Positions 43,701 to 49,754 of a stretch of 64,000 nt of DNA are shown one piece after another (the first letter of the stretch is position 1; each line of letters starts with the position of its first letter). The stretch covers positions 62,001-126,000 of the forward strand of contig NZ_QVLS01000007.1 of the NCBI RefSeq assembly GCF_003417535.1, in the 5' to 3' direction. The stretch comes from Hydrogenophaga borbori. Lineage in GTDB: Bacteria; Pseudomonadota; Gammaproteobacteria; Burkholderiales; Burkholderiaceae_C. The notes below the pieces were generated by a model that saw only the letters and a program-made list of their open reading frames with translations, was not told the DNA's origin and searched no databases. Made by a program: the position numbers and the translations under genes.

Positions 43701-44516
43701 TCAGCGCACCTCGATGCGCGCCGCCGCGGCCTCGGCCAGCGGTTGGGCGGCGCCGAGGTTGTCGAGCATTTCGAGCTTGAGTTGGTAGGCGCCCGCGGGC
43801 GGCGCCAGCCAGACCTCGGTCTGCCCGTCGCGGAAGTCCATCACGGCGGGCGTGCCACCGCCGGCGGGGGCCACGGTGAGCTTGAAGTGGCCGGTGTCGG
43901 GGATCTTCTGCGACATCTGCGCCACGTTGAGCAGCGAGGCGTGAAAGCGCACCAGGAAGGGCGGGCGCGGACTGGCGCCGTCCGGCAGGTCGAGGGCCAG
44001 GCCCTTCTTCTGCAGGGTGGCCGGGTCGGCGCCGGTCTTGCGCGTGACGGTGATCCTGGCGGGCTTGCTGAAGACGAAGTGCGGCAGGTGCTTCTGGTCG
44101 GCCAGCAGCATGCGCAGCGTGTACTCGCCCGGCGCGAGGTTCAGCACGGTCTCCATCTGGCCCTTGCCGAAGTGGATGTACTGGTCGTTGAAGGGCAGGG
44201 CTTGCTTGAAGTTGAGCGGCAGGTCGCGGTTGACCAGCAGGTGGTGGTGGCCGCTCTTGCCGTGCCCGCTCTGCGCAATGGGCGCCAGGCCCCAGCCGCC
44301 CGAGAGTCCGAACTTCAGCACGTAGGGCGTCTCGATGCGGTCGCCGTCCTTGAGGTTGGTGAAATAGGCCTCGGCCGACAGCCGCGGGGGCGCGGCCTGC
44401 CAGGGGTGCACGGTGCGCACCGGTTCGGGGGCCGCCTGCGCGAGCGCGGCGCTGGCGCCCAGGGCGGCCACCAGGGCGATGGTGGGTCGAAGAACAAGGG
44501 TAGGGCGCTGGCGCAT
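43701..44516 (-). CDS. DUF4399 periplasmic protein
   Basis: A 271-residue secreted protein. The signal peptide (about residues 9-28) has cleavage near ALAQA. The DUF4399 domain contains the histidine cluster SGHGKSGHHHLLVN, the NDQYIHFGKGQME segment and LNLAPGEYTLRMLLADQKHLPH. A second, C-terminal beta domain follows. The cluster of five histidines suggests possible metal binding, which is inferred and not shown. It lies downstream of the flavin oxidoreductase and the buf operon on the same strand, separated by 69 bases. Confidence 0.82.
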   Translation of the reverse strand: MRQRPTLVLRPTIALVAALGASAALAQAAPEPVRTVHPWQAAPPRLSAEAYFTNLKDGDRIETPYVLKFGLSGGWGLAPIAQSGHGKSGHHHLLVNRDLPLNFKQALPFNDQYIHFGKGQMETVLNLAPGEYTLRMLLADQKHLPHFVFSKPARITVTRKTGADPATLQKKGLALDLPDGASPRPPFLVRFHASLLNVAQMSQKIPDTGHFKLTVAPAGGGTPAVMDFRDGQTEVWLAPPAGAYQLKLEMLDNLGAAQPLAEAAAARIEVR

Positions 44517-44585: not shown

Positions 44586-45755
44586 CTACCTCGTGGAGGC
44601 CGTTTCGCCCGCCGGTGGGGGTGGCGCCGCGGTCTCGCGGCGCTCGGCGCGGTCCTTCCAGCGCGCCACCCAGGCGCCTTGCGCGCGCAGCGGCCCCCAG
44701 GCGGCGATGGCGCGTTCCGTGCCGCAGGACAGCCGCGTGAGCGGTCGCTGCGCCGGCCAGTGCGGTTTCAGGGGCTGGCCCTCGAACGCGGCCAGCAGGT
44801 TGTGCGCCAGTGTGGCGCCGGCGCGCGCCGAGGTGGTGGCGGCGTCGGGGTAGGCGTGGTCGTCGCGGCGCGCGGCGGGGCCCACGGCGAAGACCTGCGC
44901 GTGGCTCGTGCTCTGTTGGAAGCGGTTCACCCGCACCTGCCCGCCCTCGGCCAGCGCGAGCGGCGTGCCGCGCAGCCAGGCGGGCGCCTGCGCGTCACCG
45001 GCCACCAGGGGCACGTCGCAGCGCAGCAGCGCGCCATTGGCCAGGCGCACGCCCTCGACCGTGATGCCCGTGCAGCGCTCGTTGAGCACGTGGATGCGCT
45101 GGCGCTTGAGCTCGCGCCGCACGCGCGAGGCCACGTCGGGCGGCAGCTCGCCGGCCAGCGCGCCGCCGTCGGTGAGCAGGGTGAGGATGCTGCCGGGCAG
45201 GCCCTCGGCGCGCAGGCGCTGGGCGGCGGCGAAGACCAGTTCGATGGCGGCCGCGCCCGAGCCGATGACGGCGATGGACAGCGGCCGCTCGCGCGCCATG
45301 TCGACCACGCGCGGCCACAGGCCCAGGAAGGCTTCGCTGGGGTAGCGCGCCAGCGCCTGCTCGCGCGCGCCGGGCAGGCGCTGCTCCAGCGCCTCGCGGT
45401 CGGTGCTGGCCGCGGTGTCCAGCGACAGCAGGTCGAAGGGCAGTTCGAGGGCGGCGCCACCGTCGGCCGGCGCGGCATGCACGCGCCGGCCCTCCAGGTC
45501 GAGCGCGAGGCAGCGCCCGGGCACCCAGCGGGCATGGGCCAGGGTGAGCAGGCCCGACAGGCCCACGCGGCAGGCGTCGGCCGTGTACCGTCCCGCGACC
45601 ACGGCCGGCACCAGGGGTTCGTGCACGGGCGCGGGGGGCGGTGCCAGCAGGGTGACCTGCAGGTCGGCCGGGTGGTGCCGCGTCAGCCGGGCCAGCACCT
45701 CGCGGTGGGCCGGGCCGGCGCCGATGAGAACGAGTCGGGTGATGCCGCTGCGCAT
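44586..45755 (-). CDS. FAD/NAD(P)-binding pyridine nucleotide-disulfide-type oxidoreductase
   Basis: A 389-residue flavoprotein related to type II NADH dehydrogenases and sulfide:quinone oxidoreductases. The N-terminal FAD motif is RLVLIGAGPAHREVLARL, a second nucleotide motif is IAVIGSGAAAIELVFAA, and the C-terminal FAD segment contains VFAVGPAARRD. There is no redox-active CxxxxC pair, so electrons probably go straight to quinone or another acceptor. It lies 34 bases downstream of the DoxX gene and is likely the last part of the buf transcript. The true substrate is unknown. Confidence 0.85.
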   Translation of the reverse strand: MRSGITRLVLIGAGPAHREVLARLTRHHPADLQVTLLAPPPAPVHEPLVPAVVAGRYTADACRVGLSGLLTLAHARWVPGRCLALDLEGRRVHAAPADGGAALELPFDLLSLDTAASTDREALEQRLPGAREQALARYPSEAFLGLWPRVVDMARERPLSIAVIGSGAAAIELVFAAAQRLRAEGLPGSILTLLTDGGALAGELPPDVASRVRRELKRQRIHVLNERCTGITVEGVRLANGALLRCDVPLVAGDAQAPAWLRGTPLALAEGGQVRVNRFQQSTSHAQVFAVGPAARRDDHAYPDAATTSARAGATLAHNLLAAFEGQPLKPHWPAQRPLTRLSCGTERAIAAWGPLRAQGAWVARWKDRAERRETAAPPPPAGETASTR

Positions 45756-45789: not shown

Positions 45790-46248
45790 TCAGCAACGCC
45801 CGTGACGCCCCAGCCAGTGGTCCAGCGACCAGCGCCCCGGCCCGAACAGCGCCAGCGCCGCCAGCAGCGCGCCCCAGGTGAGGTGCTGCTGGAAGGCCGC
45901 CGGCGCGATCTCGCTCAGGCTGAGCACCGCCACCACGTTGACGACCGACAGCCCCAGCGCGGAGAAGCGCCCGGCCAGGCCCAGGGCCAGCAGCACCGGC
46001 AGTGCCAGCTCGCCGGCCGTGCCCAGGGGCGCGGCCAGGGCCGGTGGCAGCAGGGGCACGTGGTATTCCTCGGTGAACAGCAGCAGGGTGGTGTCCCAGT
46101 CGCGCACCTTGGTCAGGCCCGAGAGGAAGAAGACCTGGGCGATGTAGAGCCGCGCCAGCAGCGCGCCCAGGGGCTGGGCGGCGTCGAGCAGACGGGCCAG
46201 GGGCCGCCAGCCGGCGGCGATGCGGTGGCTGAAGGTGTTCGTGCTCAT
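45790..46248 (-). CDS. DoxX-family membrane protein of the bufferin operon
   Basis: A 152-residue protein with four predicted membrane helices in the DoxX pattern (GALLARLYIAQVFFLSGLTKVRDW for the first). The family is related to the small subunit of thiosulfate:quinone oxidoreductase and often accompanies DUF692 and DUF2063 genes, as here. ATG 46248 overlaps the bufC stop by four bases, showing translational coupling. The role in the bufferin pathway is unknown; candidate roles include electron transfer to quinones or membrane anchoring. Confidence 0.88.
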   Translation of the reverse strand: MSTNTFSHRIAAGWRPLARLLDAAQPLGALLARLYIAQVFFLSGLTKVRDWDTTLLLFTEEYHVPLLPPALAAPLGTAGELALPVLLALGLAGRFSALGLSVVNVVAVLSLSEIAPAAFQQHLTWGALLAALALFGPGRWSLDHWLGRHGRC

Positions 46249-47033
46249 GGGTGGGCTCCGTCGGTGGTGTTGGGGCTGGGTTCGGACGCGGGCGCCACGC
46301 CCACGCACAGGCCGCTGCGCACGGCCTCGCTCAGCCAGCCGAGGGCGTCGAGAGGGGCAACCTCCAGGGCCTGCGCCAGCGTGTGGCCGGCCAGCAGCGC
46401 GGCCTCGAAACGCGCGCTGGCGGGGTCCAGGGGGGTGAGCCGCACGGCCTGGCCCTGGCGCCAGACGCGCACGTTCTCGGCCACGCCGTCGCGCAGGCGG
46501 CGGGCGGCGGTGGCGAGGTCGGGCTCGCCGTGCAGGTGGGCGTCGAGCAGGCTGAGCACGGGCCAGCGGCTCAGAACCACGGCGGTGGCGGGCGCGAACC
46601 GCAGGCGCAGGCGCTCCGGCGGTTCGCGTTCGAGCCAGGCGAAGCTGGCGGCGTCGGCGCGGGCGCCCTCGGCGCGGGTGGCGCCATGCAAGGCCCATTC
46701 GAGGCGGGCCACGTCGGGCAGGTAGGGCAGGTGGTCGAGGCCGGTCTGCTCGGCGATGAACCCGGCCAGCGTGCCACCCCATTCGCCGAGGTCGCCGCGC
46801 GTGGGCGGGTGGTGGTGCCACAGGGCGCGCGCGAGCGTGGCGAAGGCCTCTTCGCCCAGCAGCGCGGCGACCACGGGGTAGGCGTCGAGCAGGGCGCGTT
46901 CGGCGTGGGCGTGCGCGTTGGCGCGGTAGGCGCCGAGGCCGGGGCCGTGCCAGGGGGATGCGGGCCCGGGTGGGCGGGCCCGCAGCAGGGCGTCGAGCAG
47001 GCCGCGCTGCTGACGGGCGAGCCGGGCGTTCAT
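46245..47033 (-). CDS. bufC: DUF2063 protein, BufC-like partner of the DUF692 enzyme
   Basis: A 262-residue protein of the DUF2063 (putative DNA-binding domain, HvfC/BufC) type. It begins [19 protein letters not shown] and includes [29 protein letters not shown], typical of the family N-terminal helical bundle; the C-terminal half is less conserved. In described bufferin and related RiPP clusters this protein assists the DUF692 enzyme and probably binds the precursor. ATG 47033 overlaps the bufB stop by four bases, and its own stop overlaps the DoxX start. The open frame continues upstream for 54 codons, but those residues are an out-of-frame shadow of bufB. Confidence 0.88.
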
Positions 47034-47932
47034 GCGCAGGGCTCCGGGACGCGCGTGTTCAGCGCGTCGATGGCCAGGGCCCGCGCGTGGTCGGCTTCGT
47101 CCAGCAGCACCGCCAGCGCGGGCAGGTCGGTGTCCCACTCGATCAGTGTCGGCACGGCGCCGAAGCGCGCGACGGCGTGCCGGTACGCCTGCCACACCAG
47201 CGGGGACACGCGGCTGCCGTGGTCGTCGATCACCAGATCACCGCGGTCTTGGTGGCCGGCGAGGTGCAGCTCGGCCACGCAGGCGGGCGGTATCGCGTCG
47301 AGCCAGGCGCGCACGGCGGGCAGCGCGGCCTCGACGCGGCCGGCGCGCCGCCCGTTGAGTGCGTTGACGACCAGGTTGTTGACGTCCACCAGCAGCCGGC
47401 AGCCCGTGCGCCGGCTCAGGGCCGCGAGAAAGTCGGCCTCGGTCATGTCGGCCTCGGGCCAGTGCACATAGGCCGAGAGGTTCTCCACCGCGATCGGGCG
47501 GCGCAGCCGGTCCTGCACGCGCTGCACGTTGGCGCACAGCACGGCGAGCGCGGCGTGCGTGAAGGGCAGGGGCAGCAGGTCGGCGGCGTGCACGGCCCGG
47601 CCCCTCCAGGTGCCGCGCGCGAAGCTGGCGTGCTCGCTCACGAAGCGCGGTTCGGTGGCGGCCACGAGTTCGGCCAGCCGGTCCAGGTGCCAGGGGTCGA
47701 TGCCCTCGGCCGAGCCCAGCGACAGGCCCACGCCGTGCAGGCTCAGGCCGTAGGACTCGCGGGCCTTGAGAAGAGGGGCCCGCAGGGCCGCGTGGGGCGC
47801 GAAGAAGTTCTCCGCGTGCACCTCGATGAAATCGAGCGCGGGCCGCTGCTCGAGCAGCGCGCGCTGGTGCGGCGCGCGCCAGCCGATGCCCAGCGCTGGC
47901 GCGGCGGCCTCGTGTGTCGGGACGGTCGGCAT
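47030..47932 (-). CDS. bufB: DUF692/MNIO family RiPP-modifying oxidase, BufB-like
   Basis: A 300-residue TIM-barrel protein of the multinuclear non-heme iron-dependent oxidase family (DUF692, MbnB type). The metal-ligand motifs are visible in order: [12 protein letters not shown] (His66), FVSEHASFA (His101), IAVENLSAY (Glu150), [12 protein letters not shown] (Asp183), ELHLAGH (His223 and His227), IDDHGSRVS (Asp237, His238) and LIEWDTDLP (Glu265, Asp267). Such enzymes use iron and oxygen to rearrange cysteines of a precursor peptide. It lies 22 bases downstream of bufA. ATG 47932 is used. Confidence 0.92.
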
Positions 47933-47954
47933 GGCGTGCGGCGGCCTGGCGCGA

Positions 47955-48236
47955 TCAGCTCTTCATCGAGGCCTTCTTGGCCTCGTCGGCCGACAGGCCG
48001 CCCATCTGCTTGCAGGTGCCCGCGGGCACGTACTTCCAGTCGCCCTTGTCCATGTCCATCTTGGCCTGGCCCGCGCAGGAGTGCGTGCCCGCGAGATTGG
48101 CGCAGTCGTTCTGCCCGGCCTTGGCGATGCCGTAGCACTTCTCCTTGCCGCTGTTCTGCGCCAGCGCGGGGGTGGAGAGCAGGGCCAGCGACATCAGGGA
48201 GCCGGCGGCGGCGGCGAGGAATTGGCGTTGGTTCAT
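47955..48236 (-). CDS. bufA: DUF2282 bufferin-type RiPP precursor
   Basis: A 93-residue secreted small protein of the DUF2282 family. The signal peptide (residues 1-26, cleavage near ALAQ) is followed by a core with four cysteines at positions 34, 45, 54 and 75, in the contexts [25 protein letters not shown] and PAGTCKQ. This spacing is that of bufferins, copper-binding RiPPs in which the DUF692 enzyme modifies cysteines. ATG 48236 follows AGGAGTCCCTCCC. It is the first gene of the buf operon and is divergent from an ECF sigma gene. Which cysteines are modified and which metal is bound are not known for this organism. Confidence 0.9.
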
Positions 48237-48320
48237 GGGAGGGACTCCTCAAACCCAGTGCCCACCGCGCGATGGCTCGGTGCAGGCGATCTGGTGCGTG
48301 TGTGTCGCGGCGGCGCGTGG

Positions 48321-48330
48321 GTTCTTACAC
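48321..48330 (-). promoter_or_regulatory. candidate ECF-type -35 element (GTGTAAGAAC) for the buf operon
   Basis: On the minus strand GTGTAAGAAC lies about 85 bases before bufA in the divergent gap shared with the sigma gene. The GTAAGAAC core resembles -35 elements recognised by ECF sigma factors, and a CGACAC at a plausible -10 distance follows. Called from similarity and position only. Confidence 0.3.
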
Positions 48331-48377
48331 CGCCTGTCGTGGCGCGCCGCCATCGGCTTGACCTACACTGCCGCGCC

Positions 48378-48950
48378 ATGCCGTCCCCAACGTTCGAACA
48401 GGAAGTGGCCGCGTCGCGCGGCTACCTCATGAAGTTCGCGCGCCTGCAGCTGCGCAATGAGGCCTGGGCCGAAGACGCGGTGTCCGAGACCGTGCTCGCG
48501 GCCATCGCCAAGCCGCAGGCCTTCGAGCGCCGCGCGCAGCTGCGGACCTGGCTCGTGGGCATCCTCAAGCACAAGATCGTCGACGCGCTGCGCCACCAGG
48601 GGCGCGAGGTGGCGCTGGGCCAGGGCGAGGACGACCAGGCCGACCCGCTGGACCATCTGCCCTTCGACGCCGGTGGCCACTTCGCCGAGCGCCCGGCCGA
48701 CTGGGGCAACCCCGAGCAGGACCTGGGCAGCCGCCAGTTCCTGAGCGTGCTGGAGGCCTGCACCGAAAAGCTGCCCGCCGCGCAGGGGCGCCTGTTCCTG
48801 ATGCGCGAGTGGCTGGAGATGAGCAGCGAGGAGATCTGTAAGGAGCTGTCGCTCACGCCGACCAACCTGTACGTCCAGTTGCACCGGGCCCGCCTGCGCC
48901 TGCGCGAGTGCCTCGAACTCAACTGGTTCGCCCGCCGAGACGCCGCATGA
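48378..48950 (+). CDS. ECF-type sigma factor linked to the bufferin operon
   Basis: A 190-residue sigma-70 family protein. Region 2 contains KFARLQLRNEAWAEDAVSETVL and RAQLRTWLVGILKHKIVDALR, and region 4 is SSEEICKELSLTPTNLYVQLHRARLRLRE. It is divergent from bufA and overlaps its small zinc-type anti-sigma gene by four bases (ATGA). A similar grouping of an ECF sigma factor, a cysteine/histidine anti-sigma and DUF2282/DUF692 genes is known in other Proteobacteria, such as Neisseria, so this pair probably controls the buf operon in response to metal or oxidative stress. Confidence 0.9.
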   Translation: MPSPTFEQEVAASRGYLMKFARLQLRNEAWAEDAVSETVLAAIAKPQAFERRAQLRTWLVGILKHKIVDALRHQGREVALGQGEDDQADPLDHLPFDAGGHFAERPADWGNPEQDLGSRQFLSVLEACTEKLPAAQGRLFLMREWLEMSSEEICKELSLTPTNLYVQLHRARLRLRECLELNWFARRDAA

Positions 48951-49159
48951 AGCCCCTCTACCCGTTGCGCCGCACCTGCAAGCAAGCCGTCGCGCTCATG
49001 ATCGCGCGCGAGGACCGCGAGCTGCCGCGCCTGGAGCGCTGGGCCCTGCGGCTGCATCTGGCCGTGTGCAAGGCCTGCCCGAACTTCGAGCGTCAGCTGC
49101 TGACCATGCGCCAGGCCATGGGCGCCTGGCGCCACTACAGCGACGACGAGCCCCGCTGA
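48947..49159 (+). CDS. short zinc-type (zf-HC2) anti-sigma factor
   Basis: A 70-residue soluble protein with the zinc-binding anti-sigma pattern: an N-terminal cysteine (RRTCKQAVALM), then a HLAVCKACPNF segment that supplies HxxxCxxC. It has no membrane helix, unlike the anti-sigma at 21314. Zinc or a similar metal, or oxidation of the cysteines, could release the sigma factor. ATG 48947 overlaps the sigma stop. The residues upstream in the same frame are a shadow. It probably keeps the neighbouring sigma factor inactive in the resting state. Confidence 0.85.
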   Translation: MKPLYPLRRTCKQAVALMIAREDRELPRLERWALRLHLAVCKACPNFERQLLTMRQAMGAWRHYSDDEPR

Positions 49160-49340
49160 GCCGAGCCTGCGCGCTCGCGCGTTGACGCATCAACAGTTCG
49201 CCTCTCGGGCAAGCCACCCATGGCCGCCAGGTGCGCAGCAAGTTTGCGCTGCGACAAACACGCCGCCCTCTTGCGCACGACATTGCCCTCGCATGGGATC
49301 GACCCATGAGCGCTTCAACAACCACTGAAGAGGATGCGTG

Positions 49341-49754
49341 ATGAAGAAACTTTCGATGGCAGCGATGTTGGCTGCGGCCTTGCTGGGCGCGGGTGCTCAG
49401 GCCCAGGATCAGACCCGAGACCAGACCCGAGACCAGACCCGAGACCAGACGCAGGACCAGACGCGCGAGCTCTTGCGTGATCAAAACATCTACGGTTATC
49501 AGTTGATGACGCCCGCCGAGCGGGAGCAGTACCGCGCCCGGATGCGCGCCGCGCAAACCAATGAGGAGCGGGAACGCATTCGCGCGGAGAACCATGAGCG
49601 CATGGAAGCGCGGGCCCGCGAAAAAGGCGTCAATTTGCCCGATGCGCCGCCGCCCGGCCGCGGTCCGGGATCGGGTGCCGGCCCCGGCGGCGGCTCCGGT
49701 CCGGGCAGCGGAGGGGCCGGCCCCGGTGGCGGTGGATCCGGTCGCGGCCGCTGA
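49341..49754 (+). CDS. secreted protein with DQTR tandem repeats and glycine-rich tail
   Basis: A 137-residue protein of unknown function. A signal peptide (residues 1-22, cleavage near AQAQ) is followed by five copies of a four-residue DQTR repeat (fourth copy DQTQ), a charged helical part (TPAEREQYRARMRAAQTNEERERIRAENH) and a proline/glycine-rich tail from about residue 100. The helical segment resembles stretches seen in many small periplasmic proteins. An alternative GTG at 49338 would add one residue. It lies 181 bases after the anti-sigma gene and is convergent with ftsY. No function is assigned. Confidence 0.75.
   Translation: MKKLSMAAMLAAALLGAGAQAQDQTRDQTRDQTRDQTQDQTRELLRDQNIYGYQLMTPAEREQYRARMRAAQTNEERERIRAENHERMEARAREKGVNLPDAPPPGRGPGSGAGPGGGSGPGSGGAGPGGGGSGRGR
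49407..49466 (+). repeat. 12-bp in-frame tandem repeat (5 copies) encoding DQTR
   Basis: Five consecutive 12-base units with consensus GACCAGACCCGA, the first starting GATCAG and the last two altered to GACCAGACGC followed by AG and GC. The unit is a multiple of three, so copy number can change without loss of frame. Confidence 0.95.

Follow-up and report, generated by a model that had tools for sequence, protein, structure and literature searches.

A Buf1-type bufferin operon divergent from a sigma/ZAS anti-sigma pair in Hydrogenophaga borbori: a conserved predicted promoter and a predicted link to methionine-sulfoxide repair

Introduction

What controls a bufferin operon, and to what does it respond? 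The question is raised by a 64,000-nucleotide stretch of the Hydrogenophaga borbori genome (RefSeq assembly GCF_003417535.1, contig NZ_QVLS01000007.1, positions 62,001 to 126,000 of the forward strand; hereafter the window, in whose coordinates positions are given). Six genes at 45790-49159 comprise a bufferin cluster on the minus strand (bufA-bufB-bufC-doxX) and, divergent on the plus strand, a pair encoding an extracytoplasmic function (ECF) sigma factor and an anti-sigma factor. A preliminary description had regarded the pair as the cluster's own. The specific function of bufferins still needs biological study according to a 2026 paper (PMC13097082), and a promoter and predicted regulon would help decide whether the bufferin response is to copper, oxidation or both. 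We consider it likely that the Buf1 bufferin operon and msrP are together under an ECF sigma factor that is held by a ZAS (zinc-binding anti-sigma) protein and released by disturbance of zinc or thiols.

The bufferin locus

The six genes and the predicted promoter are as follows.

47955..48236, minus strand: bufA, Buf1 (DUF2282) precursor, 93 amino acids (Pfam DUF2282, E 8.5e-26)
47030..47932, minus strand: bufB, MNIO (DUF692) enzyme, 300 amino acids (Pfam MbnB_TglH_ChrH, E 2.6e-91)
46245..47033, minus strand: bufC, DUF2063 partner protein, 262 amino acids (Pfam DUF2063, E 2.7e-15)
45790..46248, minus strand: doxX, DoxX membrane protein, 152 amino acids (Pfam DoxX, E 5.7e-16)
48378..48950, plus strand: ECF sigma factor, 190 amino acids (Pfam Sigma70_r2 and r4_2; NCBIfam PRK12520 and TIGR02943)
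48947..49159, plus strand: ZAS anti-sigma factor, 70 amino acids (zf-HC2, E 4.6e-8; NF052368)
48304..48328, minus strand: predicted ECF promoter of bufA, GTAAGAA-N15-GAC (two-block motif, 49 of 50 divergent-bufA loci)

A profile search placed all six products above the curated Pfam cut-offs, with DUF2282, DUF692 (as MbnB_TglH_ChrH), DUF2063 and DoxX all matched. The gene set, the coordinates and the four-base overlaps of bufB with bufC (47030-47033) and of bufC with doxX (46245-46248) agree with the preliminary description; the sigma and anti-sigma genes also overlap by four bases (48947-48950), and 22 nucleotides separate bufA from bufB. By family content the cluster is of the Buf1 (DUF2282) type, which upholds its earlier assignment to the bufferins; a DoxX gene is a frequent though not constant part of such clusters. 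The genome contains a single DUF2282 place and a single MNIO place.

The four cysteines of the BufA precursor, already remarked on in the earlier account, stand at positions 34, 45, 54 and 75; in an alignment of 99 DUF2282 sequences that contained the window's, all 99 keep them. These 99 remained from 101 places after two were dropped for internal stops, and they also served for the promoter counts. The N-terminus of BufA is hydrophobic and ends in ALAQ, by eye an apparent Sec signal. The MNIO survey describes Buf1 peptides with modified central cysteines and a disulfide between the outer ones (PMC12452194), so that modification of C45 and C54 and a C34-C75 disulfide are predicted here. The central modification expected of a Buf1 bufferin is a thiooxazole, for which a mass loss of 4 Da per cysteine is quoted, and copper binding would go with it.

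The top NCBIfam match of BufB was MNIO_BufB at 297.1 bits, narrowly under the equivalog cut-off of 310. Its alignment with PDB 3bww, a solved DUF692 protein, spans the HG, SEH/SDH, VEN, DVNN and HxAGH blocks, with a weak second segment (0.088) across DxHG and LIE/LLE; the blocks contain conserved His, Glu, Asp and Asn residues, among which the iron ligands presumably lie. BufC scored 56.8 bits on Pfam DUF2063 (cut-off 27.2) and 18.7 bits on the NCBIfam HvfC model (cut-off 142), and DoxX scored 59.8 on the HvfX model (cut-off 80), both of them Haemophilus models. Judged by the NCBIfam equivalog thresholds, the system departs slightly from type.

Sigma factor and anti-sigma factor

The sigma factor scored 283.9 bits on PRK12520 (cut-off 255) and 219.9 bits on TIGR02943 (cut-off 162.2), and the anti-sigma factor scored 61.6 bits on the NF052368 anti-sigma family (cut-off 50). 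The candidate zinc ligands C11, H37, C41 and C44 can be read directly from the anti-sigma sequence, and the earlier call of a divergent ECF sigma factor coupled to a short HxxxCxxC anti-sigma factor was correct. The spacing C-x25-H-x3-C-x2-C was present in the anti-sigma factor of 27 of 30 loci, including the window's; the reading frame was unrecovered in the other three. Short and co-encoded with an ECF sigma factor, the window protein fits the ZAS motif C/H-x23..26-H-x3-C-x2-C as defined in the literature on the Haemophilus influenzae anti-sigma factor (PMC7907618, PMC13419390). By eye, it has no evident membrane segment. Apart from one match at E 0.91, searches of the two proteins against solved structures returned nothing beyond general sigma-factor matches.

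The closest named relatives of the sigma factor were from a Hydrogenophaga sp. metagenome assembly (91% identity) and H. intermedia (89%), in a search that possibly omitted the window's own or near-identical records. The H. pseudoflava sigma factor is 74% identical, and bufA is divergent there too (L296 and L304). The sigma factor was present in 68 of 150 genomes drawn from the family (E 1e-30). Thirty sigma loci of this draw, the window's own among them, had bufA divergent in 17, eight directly and nine with a TlpA gene, recognized by eye, between. In a second sample of 80 named sigma loci, the anti-sigma factor was matched in 79, and bufA was upstream and divergent in 50. Four of the 80 were too short upstream and were counted apart; in 26 of the other 76 there was no bufA match in the stretch examined, which argues against a pair private to the bufferin.

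Promoter upstream of bufA

A block TGTAAGAA...GAC was recurrent upstream of bufA in the sigma loci of the 150-genome draw. In the form GTAAGRW-N14..16-GAC, the motif preceded 49 of the 50 divergent bufA genes of the named loci at 83-128 nucleotides from the bufA start, with a spacer of 15 in 45 sites and 16 in four, and the columns flanking it were little conserved. The same pattern read backwards occurred in none of the 50, and 200 dinucleotide shuffles gave a mean of 0.045 of 50 with a maximum of 1. The window's site stands 92 nucleotides upstream of the bufA start.

The motif was associated with the presence of the sigma factor. Among the 99 DUF2282 genes of the draw, GTAAGRA-N12..16-GAC was found within 200 nucleotides of the start in 35 of 45 bufA genes no more than 4 kb from the sigma gene, in 12 of 22 with the sigma gene elsewhere in the genome and in 7 of 32 in genomes without it (none at E 1e-30 and 45% identity). 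Fisher's test of the sigma-linked against the sigma-less genes gave 1.8e-6, a p value inflated by kinship. When 245 letter permutations were ranked, GTAAGGA and GTAAGAA came first and second (21 and 16 of 45) and the next best reached 5. The 99-gene and 80-locus samples overlap in genomes (at least at loci L256, L261 and L268). From this footprint, the divergent ECF sigma factor very probably drives the bufferin operon.

Within 300 nucleotides upstream of the sigma gene, the motif pointed in the sigma gene's own direction in only 1 of the 80 loci. The sigma factor is therefore probably not autoregulated by this motif and seems not to transcribe its own gene; autoregulation was rejected. Six of the 30 loci without a divergent bufA carry the motif upstream of sigma, pointing away.

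A TlpA-like thioredoxin gene stands between sigma and bufA in 24 of the 80 loci (also in L003, L005, L006, L010 and others). The intervening genes carry a GTAAKRA-type site of their own, 23 of 24 in the loose form and 11 of 24 in the strict form. The window is without such a gene; the best match in its genome was weak (E 4.4e-6), and the idea that the cluster here includes a TlpA gene was rejected. In the sigma-less genomes, TGTAACC and its reverse complement GGTTACA were the top 7-mers upstream of bufA (10 of 32 each) and are unlike GTAAGRA. TGTAACC resembles what we take to be the Caulobacter sigmaF element, so another sigma factor may control the bufferins of those genomes.

Predicted regulon

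A strict pattern, GTAAGAA-N15/16-GACY, was scanned in 11 genomes and all 46 matches were inspected. Nine sites precede DUF2282 genes, and seven, in seven different genomes, precede msrP. If 46 sites fell at random in the approximately 89 Mb of both strands, about 0.001 hits would be expected in the 220 nucleotides before msrP across the 11 genomes. Four sites precede VTT-domain genes, three precede genes for FG-GAP-like proteins and two each precede msrB, egtD, tlpA-like, DUF1223 and arsS genes. Single sites precede genes for a TIGR03169-like oxidoreductase, a Met-Lys repeat peptide and a Cys-rich small protein.

Gene names were given by NCBIfam at L166, L155, L157, L144, L161, L202 and L208 (plus strand), where the L202 and L208 genes are cut at the stretch end and score under the cut-offs and the L161 gene is under all of its cut-offs. 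Names came from Pfam at L145, L149, L153 and L215, by eye at L203, L204, L206, L208 (minus strand), L210, L212 and L214 and for the integrase-like genes of L156 and L158, and otherwise by BLASTP to named genes; no Pfam family matched the genes at L162 and L205.

In the window's own genome, a GTAAGGT-N15-GAC variant stands 80 nucleotides before msrP, whose product scored 474.9 bits on the MsrP model (cut-off 207). The core named for meningococci is GTAAGGTT (PMC2893595). The genome's own msrA and msrB were rejected as targets because the motif is absent upstream of them (by eye for msrA). Another own-genome gene, which we take to be DUF427-like, has GTAAGAA-N15-GAC 58 nucleotides upstream (L034; G000 C6:94960-94984). 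It too was rejected: loci were available for 30 of 90 listed homologue places, and the site was present in the own copy and in none of the 29 others.

Two side observations concern the relatives. VTT-domain and ArsS-like arsenosugar radical SAM genes carry the promoter pattern at L208, L210, L212, L214 and L215; in L208 the two kinds are divergently arranged. This gives a hint of arsenic or selenium chemistry being tied to the sigma regulon. At L156 and L158 the pattern lies 168-169 nucleotides before integrase-like genes that are 88.7% identical in two genomes; our guess is that this is perhaps a conserved attachment or tRNA neighborhood rather than a promoter.

Control of the bufferin operon

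The promoter shared with msrP and redox genes suggests that the pair probably governs a response to envelope oxidation, with the bufferin operon as one part of it, rather than acting as a private switch. The preliminary description was apt in joining the sigma factor to the cluster, which the footprint makes very probable, but calling the pair the cluster's own went too far.

In the mechanism that we propose, BufB and BufC would oxidize the two central cysteines of BufA (45 and 54) before Sec export, and the modified BufA would become a metal-binding peptide of the periplasm, with DoxX as an accessory membrane protein; these roles of BufB, BufC and DoxX are drawn from published work and from family membership. 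The ZAS protein, small and apparently cytoplasmic, would hold the sigma factor until its own C11/H37/C41/C44 center is disturbed; the most likely disturbance is oxidation, and a thiophilic metal is a possible one. The freed sigma factor would then transcribe from GTAAGRW-N15/16-GAC promoters. Its targets would be the bufferin operon and the periplasmic methionine-sulfoxide reductase MsrP in the window's genome, with MsrB, EgtD and TlpA-like proteins joining in relatives.

In MseR, the Neisseria anti-sigma factor, C4 and C37 are the counterparts of RsrA C11 and C44, a disulfide pair, and the cysteines but not His30 are needed for activity (PMC2893595). On this basis we favor a release step in which thiols are oxidized or the same center is attacked by a metal. 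The regulon content, as predicted, favors an oxidation trigger more than a copper-specific one. Evidence on the trigger from analogous systems is mixed, with hypochlorous acid (HOCl) effective in Haemophilus, copper and gold acting on the gig operon of Cupriavidus metallidurans, and no response of meningococcal sigmaE to the oxidants named below.

A copper (or gold) sensor dedicated to the bufferin, in which Cu(I) displaces the zinc of the anti-sigma factor and the sites before msrP and other genes are incidental, would agree with the upstream, divergent bufA of 50 of the 80 sigma loci and with the induction of gig by copper and gold (PMC10304878). We regard it as unlikely, however, in view of the same promoter that 7 of 11 genomes carry before msrP, its presence before other thiol or methionine genes, the 26 of 76 sigma loci with no bufA match nearby and the homologous Haemophilus and Neisseria regulons tied to msrAB (PMC7907618, PMC2893595). 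Rather more doubtful is the proposal that the pair controls envelope-oxidation genes and the bufferin is mainly a sacrificial thiol or redox peptide, not a copper chelator. Regulon content speaks for it, as does the RpoE2 dependence of HOCl induction of the Haemophilus DoxX cluster (PMC7907618), but thiooxazole peptides of this class bind copper (PMC12452194, PMC13097082), and oxidant sink is a conjectural role for BufA. Reading of the operon mainly from a housekeeping promoter, with the sigma factor a neighbor by descent only, would fit the failure of an rpoQ deletion to lower gig expression in C. metallidurans (PMC10304878) but is highly improbable beside a conserved motif at 49 of 50 loci, 83-128 nucleotides from the bufA start amid little-conserved columns, that is associated with sigma presence.

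Control of the bufferin operon and msrP by a ZAS-held sigma factor has to be set against several results that count the other way. The two-block motif was missing in 10 of 45 sigma-linked bufA genes and present in 7 of 32 from genomes without a detected sigma factor. The strict pattern had fewer matches in the 11 genomes (46) than its backwards control (70), so that single sites mean little and recurrence before the same genes is what counts; two of the 46 precede the related integrase-like genes and eight precede nothing recurrent. It had no match in the window's own genome, where relaxed patterns gave six matches each and their backwards controls 27 and 25, and only the bufA and msrP sites are therefore backed there by conservation in relatives. 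Among published systems, the rpoQ deletion raised gig expression in metal-treated C. metallidurans and its anti-sigma factor, RsqA, is predicted to be membrane-bound (PMC10304878), and N. meningitidis sigmaE was unresponsive to H2O2, diamide and singlet oxygen (PMC2893595).

There is perhaps an even chance that the bufferin operon of Hydrogenophaga and its relatives in the Burkholderiales is part of an envelope-oxidation regulon under ZAS control, together with MsrP, MsrB, the ergothioneine protein EgtD, TlpA-like and VTT/ArsS proteins. A single stress, such as hypochlorite or copper-driven oxidation, would then be countered by a copper-binding peptide and methionine repair at once.

Neighboring genes

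Three further open reading frames flank the locus.

44586..45755, minus strand: FAD/NAD(P) oxidoreductase, TIGR03169-like, probable operon extension (Pyr_redox_2, E 1.7e-10)
43701..44516, minus strand: DUF4399 protein, possible operon extension (Pfam DUF4399, E 1.8e-39)
49338-49754, plus strand: small protein 3' of the anti-sigma gene, with a DQTR repeat and a Gly/Pro-rich tail (open reading frame)

The same-strand continuation after doxX was missing from the preliminary description. A gap of 34 nucleotides separates doxX from the oxidoreductase gene, and the DUF4399 gene follows. The oxidoreductase scored 215.7 bits on the TIGR03169 model, under its cut-off of 310; the TIGR03169-like gene of the relative locus L202 is preceded by a GTAAGAA site. 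The order was kept in 3 of the 80 named sigma loci (L232, L233 and L235), a count in which other loci may end short of the position, and DUF4399 was also present in L254. Eight longer stretches, of which one came from the same genus, gave matches to neither the oxidoreductase nor DUF4399; six gave a doxX match. The small protein had no Pfam match over the cut-off and a tblastn match in 1 of the 80 sigma loci (L236), possibly of low complexity.

Comparison with known systems

Both the cluster and the stress switch beside it are of known kinds; the locus is an ordinary example, though a well-supported one, and clusters like it number in the thousands. What it usefully offers is a predicted promoter open to testing at each base, together with a predicted regulon that links the bufferin to methionine-sulfoxide repair. 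The literature searched yielded no paper that makes this link for the bacterial family; in Haemophilus, outside the family, published work joins msrAB with a DoxX/DUF2063 operon (PMC7907618). MNIO clusters are tied to oxidative and metal stress in a 2026 paper that has the RpoE2 paper among its references (PMC13097082). For Hydrogenophaga, the advance offered by ZAS-type control and the predicted tie to MsrP is modest.

The divergent layout is already described in C. metallidurans, where gigABT presumably encode the MNIO, DUF2063 and DoxX proteins. As in the window, the four-gene operon gigPABT is divergent from an ECF sigma gene, rpoQ, with the anti-sigma gene rsqA downstream, and GigP, at 94 amino acids with four cysteines after the leader, is comparable to BufA (PMC10304878). 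A C. metallidurans Buf1 is also modeled in the MNIO survey (PMC12452194). With the divergent arrangement already published, we rejected the idea that the present locus is a categorically new find. It differs in its 70-residue anti-sigma factor, which has no evident membrane segment, unlike RsqA as described; in C. metallidurans, moreover, no RpoQ-dependent promoter was shown and rpoQ-rsqA depends on RpoD (PMC10304878).

The N. meningitidis SigmaE-MseR operon (NMB2140-2145) resembles the window in its DoxX-type gene, sigma factor and ZAS anti-sigma factor and contains hypothetical genes besides (PMC2893595). Its consensus is GTMAGBWTT at -35 and CGTCTAAH at -10 with a spacer of 12-13; the promoter predicted here shares the GTAAG core and the distance between blocks but has CGAC/GAC where Neisseria has CGTC (PMC2893595). 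The Neisseria regulon includes msrA and msrB, and the regulon predicted here, from promoter sequence only, likewise includes an msr gene, msrP. The Neisseria genes form one co-transcribed, autoregulated operon (PMC2893595), in contrast to the window, where the sigma gene is read divergently and lacks a promoter of the matching type.

In H. influenzae, HrsE is a 67-residue cytoplasmic ZAS protein, like the window's apparently cytoplasmic anti-sigma factor, and the RpoE2 regulon joins msrAB with an HOCl-induced DoxX/COG3220/DUF2063 operon (PMC7907618, PMC13419390), which we infer to be the hvf operon. Its precursor HvfA, however, is of the EGKCG type, not DUF2282, and by locus tags the DoxX operon lies away from the sigma gene; self-control of rpoE2 is described as very limited (PMC7907618, PMC13419390).

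The window's anti-sigma factor matched zf-HC2 and no other Pfam family, NrsF included. Buf1 with a sigma factor and NrsF is presumably exemplified by Caulobacter SigF/NrsF, and a study of Azospira SigF reportedly concerns a Met-rich peptide and YedY. The surveyed Buf1 clusters that have a sigma factor share the DUF2282 precursor, MNIO, DUF2063, DoxX and ECF sigma genes of the window, but their anti-sigma factor is NrsF (PF06532), where the window has a zf-HC2 ZAS protein instead (PMC12452194).

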